From Weissella ceti (GTDB lineage Bacteria > Bacillota > Bacilli > Lactobacillales > Lactobacillaceae), in NCBI RefSeq assembly GCF_018394055.1, contig NZ_CP074441.1, forward strand, positions 1,426,001-1,490,000: a stretch of DNA of 64,000 nt, written 5' to 3'. This document shows, one piece after another, positions 52,350 through 57,850 of the stretch. Made by a program: the position numbers and the translations under genes. The notes beneath the pieces are model-generated. The model did no database searches. It was not told where the DNA came from and was given only the letters and a program-made list of their open reading frames with translations. How positions within the stretch are numbered: position 1 is the stretch's first letter; every line of letters begins with the position of its first letter.

Positions 52350-53171
52350 TTACTTCTTATCTGGATTTTTAGTCAAATCCTTATCAAAGTACTTTTCAGA
52401 TAACTTCTTCATTGTTCCGTTATCACGTAGTGCTTTTTCTGCACGATCAATTTCAGACGTTAATTCTGTCTTCTTCTTGCTCAACATTGGCGCTGCCCCC
52501 GTCAAATCAACATCCTTTGTTTCAATAGCTGTCAATTCTGTCTTCGGGTTAGACTTCTTGTAGATACTCCATGAATCATCAGAATTTAGAGTTACATCCG
52601 CTTTACCATTTTTCACTAATTCTAATGATTCGGCAAATCCTGGTGAAGCTACAATTTCAGCCCCTGCTTTCGCAGCAGCTTGTCCATAGTTAGATGAAGT
52701 TGTTTGTGCAGACTTTTTACCATCTAAGTCACTCAACTTCTTAATATCTGACCCCTTCTTAACGATTAGAATTGCTGGTGAATATAGGTAGTTTTCAGCA
52801 AATGAATAATGTTCTTCACGTGCAGGTGTTTTCCCCATATTGTTCATAACAACATCGTACTTATTAGCATCCAAACCAGCAATTAATGATTCGAACTTAG
52901 TTTCAACAAATACTGGCTTAACACCCATTTGCTTTGCAATTTCTTGTGCTAACTCAACTTCATATCCAGTTAAGTTTCCATCCTTATCCTTATAAGAGAA
53001 TGGCACGTATGTTCCTTCAAGGCCGATAGTCAAGGCATTTGGATTAACCAATTCACCTTTGAATCCTGTTTCTTTGTTAGACTTTCCTCCAGCATTTAGC
53101 GCCCAAACAGCACTTCCTACCACAGCCGCAACAATAGCTAGTCCAGTCACACCACGTACAATTTTATTCAT
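52350..53171 (-). CDS. tcyA: Cystine-type ABC transporter substrate-binding protein
   Basis: 273 aa. N-terminal membrane/signal segment (GLAIVAAVVGSAVWAL) with no lipobox Cys, so it is probably membrane-anchored rather than a lipoprotein. SBP_bac_3 domain: LTIGLEGTYVPFSYKDKDGNLTGYEVELAQEIAKQMG, KFESLIAGLDANKYDVVMNNMG, and GKKSAQTTSSNYGQAA match the cystine-binding TcyA/TcyJ/FliY group. GAGGAG precedes the ATG. It is divergent from its permease and ATPase genes and preceded by a Cys-codon-rich leader. Confidence 0.85.
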   Translation of the reverse strand: MNKIVRGVTGLAIVAAVVGSAVWALNAGGKSNKETGFKGELVNPNALTIGLEGTYVPFSYKDKDGNLTGYEVELAQEIAKQMGVKPVFVETKFESLIAGLDANKYDVVMNNMGKTPAREEHYSFAENYLYSPAILIVKKGSDIKKLSDLDGKKSAQTTSSNYGQAAAKAGAEIVASPGFAESLELVKNGKADVTLNSDDSWSIYKKSNPKTELTAIETKDVDLTGAAPMLSKKKTELTSEIDRAEKALRDNGTMKKLSEKYFDKDLTKNPDKK

Positions 53172-53223
53172 AATATATTCTCCTCGATTTTAGATCTAAT
53201 TTAGTTTTTGTTCGTTGTCAAAA

Positions 53224-53289
53224 TTAGCAACAGCAGCCCAATAAATTAGAGTCTGTACATCGATTGTGTTTATGATTTAAGATTGCCAT
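53224..53289 (-). CDS. Cys-rich leader peptide upstream of tcyA, 21 aa
   Basis: The ATG at 53289 has AAGGTGG exactly 7 bases upstream. The product begins MAILNHKHNRC and ends LLGCCC, so the last three sense codons before TAA are TGC TGT TGC; a fourth Cys is codon 11. The stop is 52 bases before the tcyA ATG. A CTAATTT/AAATTAG stem can form just after the Cys codons, and an alternative pairing of ATTTTGA with TCTAAAAT reaches next to the tcyA ribosome site. No clear intrinsic terminator, so control may act on translation. Candidate promoter: TTTCGC, 17 bases, TATATT (53352-53380). Confidence 0.7.
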   Translation of the reverse strand: MAILNHKHNRCTDSNLLGCCC

Positions 53290-53402
53290 AGCATGTCCAC
53301 CTTCACTTATTTTTTTGTTAGTTTTGAAAACTTACAAAAAGTAACAAATTAAATATATCATATAACTTCCTTCTGCGAAACTGCTTAGAGTCGTATTTAT
53401 AC

Positions 53403-53431
53403 TTGATTTCAATGTACAACTTACTTATAAT
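53403..53431 (+). promoter_or_regulatory. Promoter of the tcyBC operon
   Basis: -35 TTGATT, 17-base spacer, -10 TATAAT. Transcription would start near 53438, giving a leader of about 200 nt. Confidence 0.8.
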
Positions 53432-53478: not shown

Positions 53479-53526
53479 ATGAGCCAACTAATGTCATCAT
53501 TCATTATTTGTCTACACCTAGCGTAA
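53479..53526 (+). CDS. Leader peptide upstream of tcyB, 15 aa
   Basis: MSQLMSSFIICLHLA, with AAGGGAG 5 bases before the ATG. Cys is codon 11 (TGT, 53509-53511). The last codons and the stop form the left arm of hairpin CCTAGCGTAA/TTACGTTAGG (53517-53538), so ribosome position would decide folding upstream of the terminator at 53572. Confidence 0.6.
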   Translation: MSQLMSSFIICLHLA

Positions 53527-53571
53527 GTTTACGTTAGGTTATTTGATGTTCCATATCAAAATCTCGTATTC

Positions 53572-53611
53572 AAGCGCTAACCGTCTTCTTACCGACGATT
53601 AGCGCTTTTTT
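53572..53611 (+). terminator. Leader terminator (attenuator) of tcyBC
   Basis: AAGCGCTAA / TTAGCGCTT stem plus inner CGTC/GACG, followed by T5, ending 26 bases before the tcyB start. It is placed between promoter and first gene, as in attenuation. A hairpin TTTGAT/ATCAAA lies just upstream. Confidence 0.8.
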
Positions 53612-53636: not shown

Positions 53637-54338
53637 ATGTTTGATTTTATTGCTACATATGCACCACAATTATTAGTGGCTGGATTAAAATATACAATTC
53701 CACTTGCGCTAATTTCCTTTGTTTTTGCATTGGTTATTGCATCAATTGTTGGAATCTTCCGTTCTTATACACCAAGCTTAGTAGGTTGGCGTAAGTTAGG
53801 TTGGACAATTATGCAACGACTACTTCAATTCTACGTTTGGATTTTTCGTTCTACTCCCATGCTAGTTCAACTATTTGTTGTCTTCTATGGATTACCAAAA
53901 CTTGGTATTTCTTGGCTACAACCCTCTCCATGGGGTTCAGCAATCGCAGTCTTCTCATTGAATACCGGTGCGTATGCAAGTGAATCACTACGTGCCGCTA
54001 TCGCTTCTGTGCCGGATACACAACGAGAAGCCGCGGAAGCTCTTGGAATGACTGATCAACAAATTTTTGGTCGTATCATTTTGCCACAAGCTGCGCGTAT
54101 CTCAATTCCAACCTTAGCGAACTCATTTATCGCGTTGGTGAAGGACACTTCTCTAGCCTCAGTTGTAACGATTGTTGAAATGTTCTATCTATCTCAACAA
54201 TTAGCTGCTGTTAACTTTGATCCTTTGAACATGTACCTACTGGTTGCGGCTATGTATGCCTTGTTTGTAAGTATCTTATCTATTCCGCAACGTTATCTAC
54301 AACGTTGGGCAGATCGCTTTGTGAAGGGAGCCAACTAA
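53637..54338 (+). CDS. tcyB: Cystine-type ABC transporter permease
   Basis: 233 aa from MFDFIATYAPQLL; AAAGGA lies before the ATG at 53637. HisM-type permease with about five helices; the EAA loop EAAEALGMTDQQIFGRIILPQAARISIPTLANSFIALVKDTSLASV is intact, and YVWIFRSTPMLVQLFVVFYGLP is the polar amino acid signature. It forms a heterotrimeric system with the ATPase (1-bp gap) and the divergent binding protein. Confidence 0.9.
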   Translation: MFDFIATYAPQLLVAGLKYTIPLALISFVFALVIASIVGIFRSYTPSLVGWRKLGWTIMQRLLQFYVWIFRSTPMLVQLFVVFYGLPKLGISWLQPSPWGSAIAVFSLNTGAYASESLRAAIASVPDTQREAAEALGMTDQQIFGRIILPQAARISIPTLANSFIALVKDTSLASVVTIVEMFYLSQQLAAVNFDPLNMYLLVAAMYALFVSILSIPQRYLQRWADRFVKGAN

Positions 54339-54339
54339 T

Positions 54340-55074
54340 ATGTTAGAACTACAACACGTTAATAAGACATACACAGAGCATCAAGCATTACGTGATATTA
54401 ATGTTACTTTTAATCCTAATGAAACAACCGTTATCGTTGGGCCTTCGGGCTCTGGAAAGTCTACGCTTCTGCGTTCTTTGAACTTATTGGAACGTCCAGA
54501 TACTGGTTTGTATACCATTGATGATAAGCAAATCGATTTCTCTGAACCATTAGATACAGAAACAAAACTATGGGTACGCCGTCAAACTGGCATGGTTTTC
54601 CAACAACCACGTATGTTTGATCACTTAACTATTCTAGGTAATATTACCGAAGCACCTGTACAAGTATTGAAGCAAAAGCAAAAAGATGCTGAAGCTGAAG
54701 CACGTCAATTACTTGAACAAGTCGGTCTAGCTGATACAGCCAATCGTTATCCATACCAACTATCTGGTGGACAAACACAACGTATTGCTATTGCGCGCGC
54801 CTTAGCAATGCATCCCAAGTATTTATTGCTAGACGAACCAACATCCGCTTTAGATCCTGAAATGGAAGCCCGTATCCTACGTATCTTGAAGCAAATGTCT
54901 GATGAAAATCAATCAATGATTCTTGTCACTCATAATATGAAGTTTGCTCAAATGGCTGCTGATCGCATCCTCTTCCTAGAAGATGGTTCAATTACATTTG
55001 ACGGCACACCTGAAACATTTTTTAATCATCCAACCGAACGTATTCAACGTTTCTTGAATGCCTTTGAAATCTAA
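54340..55074 (+). CDS. tcyC: Cystine-type ABC transporter ATPase
   Basis: 244 aa. Walker A GPSGSGKST, Q-loop VFQQPRMFDHLT, signature LSGGQTQRIAIARAL, Walker B YLLLDEPTSALD, and the H-loop in LVTHNMKFA. HisP/TcyC/GlnQ class. It starts immediately after tcyB, and a parS site overlaps the space right after its stop. Confidence 0.92.
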   Translation: MLELQHVNKTYTEHQALRDINVTFNPNETTVIVGPSGSGKSTLLRSLNLLERPDTGLYTIDDKQIDFSEPLDTETKLWVRRQTGMVFQQPRMFDHLTILGNITEAPVQVLKQKQKDAEAEARQLLEQVGLADTANRYPYQLSGGQTQRIAIARALAMHPKYLLLDEPTSALDPEMEARILRILKQMSDENQSMILVTHNMKFAQMAADRILFLEDGSITFDGTPETFFNHPTERIQRFLNAFEI

Positions 55075-55498: not shown

Positions 55499-55843
55499 TT
55501 AGGCTTGATGACAATTTTCATCAGATCCTTCATGAATATGTTGATTGTGTTCTAAGGCTTCATTCAGGATATCTAAAATATGGCTGTCATTTAGAGAATA
55601 TGAGACAGTCTTCCCTACTTGACTCGTTGAAATCAGGTGGCCTTTACGAAGCAAGATCAATTGGTGTGATACAGCCGATTGTTCTAATCCTAAACGTTCA
55701 ACAATTTCACTAACGTTCATCGTACGTTGTTCTAACATGTAGATAATTTGTAAACGCATTGGATGGCTTAGTAACTTAAATATATCCCGAATCCCTGTTA
55801 CATCCGATTCAGATAGCTTGTTTACAGGACTTAATTCTGTCAT
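55499..55843 (-). CDS. ArsR/SmtB-family metal-responsive repressor
   Basis: 114 aa from MTELSPVNKL; GAGG is 8 bases before the ATG at 55843. Winged helix LLSHPMRLQIIYMLEQRTMNVSEIVERLGLEQSAVSHQLILLRKGHLISTSQVGKTVSYSL. The C-terminal helix carries His/Asp (DSHILDILNEALEHNQHIHEG), like the alpha-5 zinc site of CzrA/SmtB. It is divergent from a P1B ATPase, which it should repress until metal binds. Confidence 0.9.
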   Translation of the reverse strand: MTELSPVNKLSESDVTGIRDIFKLLSHPMRLQIIYMLEQRTMNVSEIVERLGLEQSAVSHQLILLRKGHLISTSQVGKTVSYSLNDSHILDILNEALEHNQHIHEGSDENCHQA

Positions 55844-55907
55844 TGCTTTTTCCTCTCGTGTTAATTCATTTGTATATTTTATCATAGTTTGAAAAAACAA
55901 ATGATCT

Positions 55908-55950
55908 TGTGCCTTGTATTTTACACCTCATATGATAAACTTGTCATATG
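55908..55950 (+). promoter_or_regulatory. Metal-ATPase promoter and ArsR-type operator
   Basis: -35 TTGTGC (55908), 17-base spacer, -10 TATGAT (55931). The inverted repeat CATATGA-N8-TCATATG (55929-55950) covers the -10 and resembles CzrA-type operators. Confidence 0.75.
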
Positions 55951-55981
55951 AAAAAGATTTCATACGAAAGGATATTATATT

Positions 55982-57850
55982 ATGAAGAATTTACACTTAG
56001 ACGCCGAGAACAAGCGTCGTGCCATCTTATTGGTGGCTGCCATATTACTAACCGTCTGTGCGTACATGATGCCATTGAACGTCGTTAGCATTGTGATTTT
56101 CCTAGTTGCCTACATACTTGCCGGTGGAGGCGTTGTTCTAAAAGCCGTCCGTCATATTTTTGAAGGTGATTTTTTCGATGAAAACACACTAATGAGTATC
56201 GCAACAATCGGTGCCTTAATTCTAGGAGACTTCCCTGAAGCGATTGCCGTGATGTTGTTCTTCTCTGTAGGAGAAATCATTGAAGATGCTGCTGTTGATC
56301 GTTCAAAGCGTTCAATTACCGAATTGTTGTCTGTGAAACCAGAATTTGCTAATCTTCAAACAATTAACGGATTTAAAGAAGTTAATCCAGAAACCGTTAA
56401 AATTGGTGATTTCATTCAAATCAAGCCAGGCGAAAAGGTTCCCTTAGACGGTGTCGTGGTTGATGGTACATCAACGCTAAATACTGCGGCTTTAACGGGT
56501 GAATCTATGCCCCAAACGGTTACAACTGGTGATGAAGTATTGAGTGGTTCAATTAATGATAATGGGACATTATTGTTAGAGGTTACAAAGGTCTTCGCCG
56601 ACTCAACAGTTGCCAAGATTTTAGACCTTGTTGAAAACGCAAATGAAAAGAAAACTGATACAGAAAAATTCATTACCAAGTTTTCACACATCTACACACC
56701 AATCGTTGTTGGTGCTGCTCTACTTCTTGCCATTATTCCACCACTTGTATTTGGGGCTGAATGGTCAGTTTGGACGTCACGCGCACTAGTATTCTTAGTT
56801 ATTTCATGTCCCTGTGCTTTGGTTCTATCAGTGCCCTTGGCTTTCTTTGCTGGTCTTGGTGCCACATCACAACATGGTGTATTAATTAAGGGAAGTAACT
56901 ATTTAGAGGCTTTAAATAACGTTGATACTGTTGTTTTTGACAAGACAGGAACCTTGACTGAAGGTCGTTTCACGGTTCGTGATATCGTTCCTGAAAATGG
57001 AATTTCACGCGAAGAATTGCTTGCCTATACTGCTGCCGTAGAACAAACATCAACACATCCAATTGCTCGTTCAATCGTTCAAAGTTTTGAGGATAATCTA
57101 GCCGATTACACAGTTTCAAATACAATTGAAACTGCTGGCCATGGAATTGGCGCTACTGTTAATGGACGTAATGTCATTGTCGGTAACAACAAGGCATTAG
57201 CTACAATTGGATTGCCCGAACAAGCACTAGATAACGCCGGAACAACTGTTTTCGTAGCGGTTGATAACGTTTATTGGGGACATATCGTGATTGCTGATCA
57301 GCCTAAGGCAGACGCTAAGGGAGCAATTGATTCTCTGCATGCACAAGGTATCAAGAAGACGGTTATGCTAACTGGTGATAACCACACCATCGGGACAACC
57401 GTTGCTGATGCATTAGGGTTAGACGACGTGAAAACAAATCTATTGCCTGGCGATAAGGTTGATGAAATCCAATTACTACAAGATCAAGAAACTGCTAATC
57501 ATATGGTTGCATTCGTCGGTGATGGTATCAACGACACCCCTGTTTTAATGCAAGCTGATGTTGGAATTGCCATGGGTGGCTTAGGTTCTGATGCCGCGAT
57601 TGAAGCTGCTGACCTAGTGATCATGGATGATAAGCCCTCTCGTATCGCAACAGTGATTAAGATTGCACGTAAGACACGTCAAATTGTTGTGCAAAATATC
57701 GTCTTTGCTTTGGGAATTAAAACATTATTCCTAGTACTTGGTGCCTTTGGAATCATTGGAATGTGGGAAGCCGTCTTTGCTGATGTTGGCGTAACTGTTC
57801 TAGCTGTGTTAAATGCAATGCGTATCCTACGTGCAAAGTACGAGGATTAG
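55982..57850 (+). CDS. cadA: P1B-2-type heavy-metal-exporting ATPase (Zn/Cd/Pb)
   Basis: 622 aa. CPC transmembrane motif in VISCPCALVLSVPLAF, TGES actuator, DKTGT phosphorylation site, the HP dipeptide STHPIA, and GDGINDTPVL. The C-terminal FADVGVTVLAVLNAMR with Asp, and the Lys in TM7 (GIKTLFLVLG), mark the Zn2+/Cd2+ subgroup. There is no N-terminal heavy-metal-binding domain. The neighbouring ArsR regulator supports the role. The exact metal is uncertain. Confidence 0.9.
   Translation: MKNLHLDAENKRRAILLVAAILLTVCAYMMPLNVVSIVIFLVAYILAGGGVVLKAVRHIFEGDFFDENTLMSIATIGALILGDFPEAIAVMLFFSVGEIIEDAAVDRSKRSITELLSVKPEFANLQTINGFKEVNPETVKIGDFIQIKPGEKVPLDGVVVDGTSTLNTAALTGESMPQTVTTGDEVLSGSINDNGTLLLEVTKVFADSTVAKILDLVENANEKKTDTEKFITKFSHIYTPIVVGAALLLAIIPPLVFGAEWSVWTSRALVFLVISCPCALVLSVPLAFFAGLGATSQHGVLIKGSNYLEALNNVDTVVFDKTGTLTEGRFTVRDIVPENGISREELLAYTAAVEQTSTHPIARSIVQSFEDNLADYTVSNTIETAGHGIGATVNGRNVIVGNNKALATIGLPEQALDNAGTTVFVAVDNVYWGHIVIADQPKADAKGAIDSLHAQGIKKTVMLTGDNHTIGTTVADALGLDDVKTNLLPGDKVDEIQLLQDQETANHMVAFVGDGINDTPVLMQADVGIAMGGLGSDAAIEAADLVIMDDKPSRIATVIKIARKTRQIVVQNIVFALGIKTLFLVLGAFGIIGMWEAVFADVGVTVLAVLNAMRILRAKYED

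Follow-up and report, generated by a model that had tools for sequence, protein, structure and literature searches.

The transporter locus

The window, a stretch of 64,000 nucleotides from Weissella ceti (NZ_CP074441.1, positions 1,426,001 to 1,490,000; coordinates below count from its first letter), encodes what is probably a cystine ABC transporter. Its permease and ATPase genes diverge from its binding-protein gene, and two leaders, one per strand, lie between them.

52350..53171, minus strand: binding-protein gene of an amino-acid (probably cystine) ABC transporter, 273 aa (PF00497, E 2.7e-40)
53403..53431, plus strand: promoter-like site TTGATT-17-TATAAT of the divergent transcript (consensus scan, 10/12)
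53637..54338, plus strand: ABC transporter permease gene (PF00528)
54340..55074, plus strand: ABC transporter ATPase gene (PF00005, E 2.6e-36)

The domain search placed the binding protein in the SBP_bac_3 family, and its top PDB match was 2yln_A (E 1.1e-50). The top NCBIfam model was the cystine binding protein, at 139.8 bits and thus below the cut-off of 312; for the permease it was the cystine permease, also below its cut-off. Since the cystine models were the best for both proteins and yet under the cut-offs, cystine is the likely, unproven substrate. The same applies to the gene name tcyA given in the first-pass annotation, which agrees with the top model and is likely only. When the binding protein was searched against plasmids, every one of the 1,643 records had <60% identity, and the matches listed (15 of 1,643) were all from alphaproteobacteria. 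The promoter-like site is no evidence by itself, since the region has five such sites and shuffles had 6.2. Further along the window (55499-57850), an ArsR-type regulator gene adjoins a divergent P-type ATPase gene, probably for metal efflux.

A conserved Cys leader ahead of the binding-protein gene

Leader 1 is a frame of 21 codons with Cys at codons 11, 19, 20, and 21, separated by 52 bases from the binding-protein ATG. The frame, its ribosome site, its Cys codons, and the spacing were all as reported in the first-pass annotation, and they lie on the minus strand.

53297..53303, minus strand: Shine-Dalgarno (SD) sequence AAGGTGG of leader 1, 7 bases 5' of the leader ATG (sequence)
53224..53289, minus strand: leader frame 1, MAILNHKHNRCTDSNLLGCCC and stop, upstream of the binding-protein gene (direct reading)
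53257..53262, minus strand: conserved CGA-UGU (Arg-Cys) pair, codons 10-11, inferred stall site (conservation, folding)
53227..53235, minus strand: Cys-Cys-Cys (CCC) codons 19-21, possible secondary stall site (common only to the closest relative, L003)
53195..53250, minus strand: predicted sequestering stem, TCTAATTTA (53242-53250) with TAAATTAGA (53195-53203), plus TCGAT/ATCGA (MFE fold)
53180..53185, minus strand: SD sequence GAGGAG of the binding-protein gene (sequence)

The window has 69 ATG frames of 6 to 40 aa led by an SD sequence, one of them with CCC. Dinucleotide shuffles (n=30) gave a mean of 0.2 SD-led CCC frames per window, so that a lone sighting of leader 1 is not significant, and the case for it is carried by position and conservation rather than by the CCC frame alone. 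When the whole genome was scanned in pieces (14 kb covered twice; a frame cut by a piece border may escape detection), leader 1 alone of the 107 candidate 5'-region leaders had CCC. Cys codons made up 0.14% of the codons in the 39 window open reading frames (ORFs) of at least 200 aa and 0.29% in the genome scan, and the share of CGA among Arg codons was 13% and 11%, respectively. Another candidate Cys leader, at genome position 580061, was rejected because it sits on the terminator of the preceding gene; the gene 3' of it is trans-sulfuration enzyme-like by sequence reading.

A homologue of the binding protein was found in 28/28 genomes of the genus. The set with the divergent layout comprised 17 loci, our own included, each with one binding-protein gene adjoining the leaders. 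Absence of the frame in relatives was the outcome that the first-pass annotation had set as disproof; instead, a short Cys-containing frame lies 5' of the binding-protein gene in all 17. These frames are MAILNHKHNRCTDSNLLGCCC (own), MVTFYHKSRRCLKNNLTGCCC (L003), MMTNLQFAHRCYPTGLACSC (L032), MIMLSKRCWLSE (L034), MKTLAKRC (L033), MKTLMNRC (L035), MTILRDRC (L036), one ending in LLGRC (L048), MNFRMRC (L043 and L004), MALGMRC (L047), MSLGMRC (L044 to L046), one ending in NVC (L005), MVMVCNY (L049), and MRKVCNC (L050). Aligned, they show the pattern that had been expected of a functional leader, with the Cys codons kept and the rest of the frame variable. The hexamer CGATGT is retained at 16 of the 17 loci and falls within the leader frame at 14, ten of which have a recognised ribosome site (L033 to L036 are without a clear one). 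Among the Cys codons proposed earlier as stall sites, codon 11 of the CGA-UGU pair is therefore the conserved one, whereas the CCC end recurs only in L003. In L049 and L050, CGATGT stands at the usual distance yet outside the SD-led frame, a hint that it does more than encode Arg-Cys. Leader 1 is absent from six of the 23 genomes that carry the plus-strand element described below; these six have tandem binding-protein genes, and the 250 bases 5' of the gene adjoining leader 2 held no SD-led frame of 5 to 40 aa.

Predicted masking of the ribosome site

In the MFE fold of our own sequence, the TCGAT/ATCGA pairing extends the sequestering stem up to the ribosome site of the binding-protein gene. 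For a ribosome footprint assumed to span 18 bases 5' of the A-site codon and 12 bases beginning with it, the predicted cost of opening this site fell from 9.0 kcal/mol in the free RNA to 2.2 kcal/mol with codon 11 in the A site. The minimum (2.1 kcal/mol) came one codon later, and the cost rose through 3.5, 4.6, and 6.0 at codons 19, 20, and 21 to 8.7 kcal/mol at the stop; none of 100 shuffles matched this stall-dependent drop.

The same was true of the 17 loci together (CGATGT being taken as the stall site in L049 and L050), where the mean drop was 2.96, versus 0.07 (sd 0.30, maximum 0.86) in 100 shuffles. After thinning of near duplicates to 12 loci, it was 3.46, versus at most 1.02. Stalling lowered the opening cost at 16 of the 17 loci, L044 going in the opposite direction; taken singly, ten scored above 95% of the shuffles made from them, and six more were positive, not significantly so. 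A stall at the SD-led Cys codons changed nothing in the opening of the site in L049, and in L050 it gave 1.8 to 1.9 kcal/mol, other late codons behaving alike, i.e., there was no specific effect.

A search of the 17 loci for a terminator between leader 1 and the gene (hairpin followed by a run of at least four T) found no strong hairpin, the strongest 5' of a T run on this side being -8.8 kcal/mol (L005) and the others -4.9 kcal/mol or weaker. The first-pass proposal that a stalled ribosome exposes the gene through alternative pairing instead of a terminator is thus in line with the predictions, in which the pairing hides the site, the site opens at the Cys codon, and no terminator is evident. 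It would apply to leader 1 only; the second Cys leader, on the divergent transcript, has one. In the folds, leader 1 behaves as a translation attenuator would, with a masked ribosome site that a stalled ribosome sets free, and it is probably an attenuator of this type.

The same data bear on the possibility that leader 1 arose by chance and has no function, unlike the plus-strand attenuator and the leaders of other genera, and that the binding-protein gene is governed by its promoter. We consider this unlikely: CCC frames are indeed expected at 0.2 per window, the CCC end is shared with one relative alone, six genomes do without leader 1, and the ribosome sites of L033 to L036 are weak, but chance would hardly put a Cys frame at the same place in 17/17 divergent loci when Cys makes up ca. 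0.3% of codons, preserve CGATGT in 16 of them despite changing flanks, or yield a mean coupling of stalling to opening that exceeds all 100 shuffles.

A second Cys leader with a terminator on the opposite strand

Leader 2, on the opposite strand and 5' of the permease and ATPase genes, had been overlooked in the first-pass annotation.

53479..53526, plus strand: leader frame 2, MSQLMSSFIICLHLA and stop, 15 codons, single Cys codon at 53509-53511 (sequence)
53517..53538, plus strand: arm 1:2 hairpin CCTAGCG...CGTTAGG, 5 bases 3' of the Cys codon (sequence, fold)
53519..53579, plus strand: putative antiterminator, 53519-53533 with 53565-53579, imperfect here with 9/15 aligned pairs (covariation)
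53572..53611, plus strand: intrinsic terminator with U run (sequence, fold, -18.0 kcal/mol), missed by a simple terminator scan

The motif TGY-N5-CCTARCG occurs in 17/17 divergent loci and in six further genomes. In 22 of these 23 genomes the TGY is in frame with an ATG, and in 20 a ribosome site was flagged. The exception is L035, which has no start codon in frame with its plus-strand Cys codon and carries Cys in frame in leader 1 only; the plus-strand Cys codon and hairpin are kept there, and the close relative L036 has an intact frame. A model (R1, 16 training sequences) recovered the element in 23 of the 28 genus genomes, seven of them outside the training set, its three weak extra matches being the opposite strand of the same places. 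In the family sample, searched at E 0.01 with stricter filters, R1 matched 16/350 genomes and 1/40 genera, i.e., our own genus alone.

The order of parts is constant: TGY motif, hairpin, alternative helix, and terminator, the last missing from L005. On the plus strand, L005 retains the Cys codon and first hairpin and lacks the later terminator arms; a second small hairpin and then a U-rich stretch follow. Across the 17 sequences, 79.7% of the antiterminator cells were paired, versus 72.1% after shuffling (0/500 as high), and 8 of the 15 pairs showed double changes (shuffled mean 5.3; 8/500 as high). Sliding the helix left 26 to 56% paired, although a slide of -2 likewise had 8 pairs with double changes. 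The helix is weak in L048 (6/15 pairs) and L050 (7/15), and its region is absent from L005. A trp-like pairing of arm 2 with arm 3 was dropped because the pairing that stays in register is a different one: a segment from the end of arm 1 through the loop to the start of arm 2 pairs with the bases that precede arm 3 and run into it. Hairpin, antiterminator, and terminator are mutually exclusive in our own species and in most of the 17.

In folds of nascent RNA, in which the transcript ends before the last terminator arm, the predicted probability of our own antiterminator was 0.99 with the Cys codon in the A site, 0.38 without a ribosome, and 0.40, 0.33, and 0.19 at one, two, and three codons past Cys; here the Cys codon is optimal together with the codon that precedes it. 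Over 16 species, the means were 0.80 at Cys and then 0.55, 0.30, and 0.21, compared with 0.78 without a ribosome and a range of 0.78 to 0.83 when stalls further upstream are included. Given these high means, Cys is no unique optimum across the genus; it marks the furthest codon at which a stall still spares the antiterminator. No antiterminator formed in the nascent-RNA folds of L048. Folding the full-length RNA at equilibrium gave 0.99 for our own terminator both with and without a stalled ribosome, and among the 16 species stalling lowered terminator pairing in five, left it unchanged in three, and raised it in eight. Equilibrium folds thus do not reproduce switching, and the switch would have to be kinetic, i.e., co-transcriptional. 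We class leader 2 as a putative transcription attenuator of the ribosome-mediated kind, in a variant form.

Cys leaders in other layouts and genera

Each of the 28 genomes of the genus carries a Cys leader at the transporter locus, 23 with the plus-strand element and five with a second type. In these remaining five, the binding-protein and permease genes are collinear behind one second-type leader, which consists of one Cys codon, a hairpin, and a terminator. A model of this type (R2, nine training sequences) matched 15/350 family genomes in four genera. Seven of the 15 were outside the training set, namely, G039 (the same as L027) and six genomes of genus g17, which had contributed one training sequence; all six have a Cys leader and a binding-protein gene, and inspection by eye showed a hairpin and a T run in the interval.

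We also took 84 homologues from outside the genus, three of which were dropped with starts too near the stretch end. Among the 81 upstream regions, an SD-led ATG frame with Cys was present in 20, with CC in 8, and with CCC in 5, compared with means of 7.0, 0.28, and 0.02 (maxima 14, 2, and 1) in 100 shuffles; in the other 61, the SD-led ATG scan found no Cys frame. Poly-Cys leaders with predicted terminators included those with the endings SECCCVVSENTTPFLHV (L112), SACCCLVTLDY (L133), and TVCCCAPLF (L122), and the frame MTTFMNAYQSNCCCTCCMI (L111). Altogether, clear Cys leaders appeared in eight other genera (g2, g7, g11, g17, g26, g35, g39, and g40). The order binding protein-permease-ATPase is collinear in g2, g17, and g39, the only genera checked for it.

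Six sister genomes with a broken binding-protein frame

In L076 and L081 to L085, the binding-protein gene adjoining leader 2 contains a conserved frame break. A signal-peptide-like frame of 29 codons ends in LLSAGVCNR and stop (MLSAGVCNR in L076), and the mature part is open for 246 to 247 codons in the +1 frame, from the UGU at a GGGG run; the first 22 codons of this part contain no start codon in any of the six. The two frames meet at GCC GGG GUG UGU. Between L076 and L083, changes at the three codon positions numbered 34, 25, and 107 in the mature part and 1, 1, and 5 in the signal part, and because of this third-position bias both frames look selected. Slippage of a tRNA from GGG to the overlapping GGG would create the lipobox LSAG-C, which makes the break a candidate programmed +1 frameshift.

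Proposed mechanism and alternatives

The frames, the placement of their codons, their conservation, and the covariation are read from the sequences and the folds are predictions; on this basis we put a probability of roughly 0.75 on the view that both divergent transcripts of the probable cystine transporter carry a ribosome-read cysteine sensor. Here we infer the stalling, the switching, and cysteine as the signal. With Cys-tRNA plentiful, ribosomes would complete the 21 codons of leader 1 and the RNA would fold to hide the ribosome site of the binding-protein gene. When Cys-tRNA is scarce, a ribosome would wait at CGA-UGU, mask one side of the stem, and leave the site exposed, perhaps with a second wait at CCC in our own leader. 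In leader 2, a ribosome at the single Cys codon would break the first hairpin, and the antiterminator could then form before the terminator is made, so that the permease and ATPase genes are transcribed.

A fuller version is more tentative, and we would sooner doubt it than rely on it: one transporter would be under several ribosome-read cysteine controls, with translational and transcriptional gates, a CGA-UGU pair tuned for hesitation, the frameshift replacing leader 1 in the six sister genomes, and an ancestor in the form of the single Cys leader of a collinear operon.

Regulation through an arrest peptide, or through binding of a protein or ligand to CGAUGU, in place of Cys-tRNA supply, would account for two things that Cys sensing alone does not need, the retention of CGA together with UGU although CGA provides 11 to 13% of Arg codons, and the persistence of CGATGT outside the SD-led frame in L049 and L050. 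However, the residues before the pair are highly variable, more so than those before the stall in known arrest peptides, and leader 2 and the inspected leaders of other genera have UGU or UGC with no preceding CGA, for which reasons we regard this as improbable. A riboswitch or T-box as the regulator of the locus, with frames of no consequence, is the least probable explanation. Our own genome does have 14 T-box matches with E of 0.001 or below (two over the curated cut-off), and one of 20 scanned loci (L029) is over threshold 5' of its binding-protein gene, but no Rfam family passed the threshold in the window, and 0/14 genome matches are at the transporter locus, where nothing qualifies as a T-box. 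In L029, the T-box (2377-2612) lies directly 5' of the homologous binding-protein gene, a possible exchange of sensing systems.

Amino-acid sensing in Firmicutes is usually described in terms of T-boxes, riboswitches, and protein regulators. If the ribosome-read sensor proposed here is real, cysteine would have to be counted among the amino acids that this phylum senses by way of the ribosome, through Cys leaders that are family-wide and, at one locus, have both transcriptional and translational outputs. The locus would also offer a compact system for studying how one codon and its CGA neighbour set the sensitivity to tRNA charging.

Comparison with known systems

Attenuation by leader peptides is a known kind of control, and Cys leaders are known from Actinobacteria and Rhodobacterales. 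We found none described for lactic acid bacteria in the open-access literature, most subscription papers being outside the scope of the search. To that extent the possible "undescribed cysteine sensor in lactic acid bacteria" of the first-pass annotation stands; Cys leaders occur in eight other genera as well.

Poly-Cys leader attenuators have been described in Actinobacteria, including mycobacteria (Seliverstov 2005, PMC1262725). They are similar in having a short frame 5' of sulfur genes whose Cys codons lie close to the stop, and a proposed role in sensing cysteine supply, and different in that the sections of that paper on them mention no conserved terminator hairpins and suggest Rho (PMC1262725). 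Our system has SD-led frames and targets a transporter; one strand carries a terminator and an antiterminator, and on the other the ribosome site is predicted to be masked. Actinobacterial Cys leaders are reportedly leaderless frames, going by the title of Canestrari 2020. Translation attenuation of the ermC/cat type likewise relies on a ribosome that stalls in a leader and thereby frees the ribosome site of the gene downstream; an antibiotic brings about that stall, whereas in leader 1 a shortage of Cys-tRNA would be the cause.

The uORFC-8-2 motif of cysS in Rhodobacterales likewise has a Cys-codon upstream ORF followed by an intrinsic terminator, with attenuation inferred, and differs in phylum, in its tandem Cys codons, and in its tRNA synthetase target (PMC8632094). 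Within the Firmicutes, the Leu-rich ilv-leu attenuator of S. aureus and the His leaders of bacilli are examples of the same leader-peptide attenuation, directed at other amino acids and at biosynthesis or synthetase genes (PMC5794164, PMC2965389).
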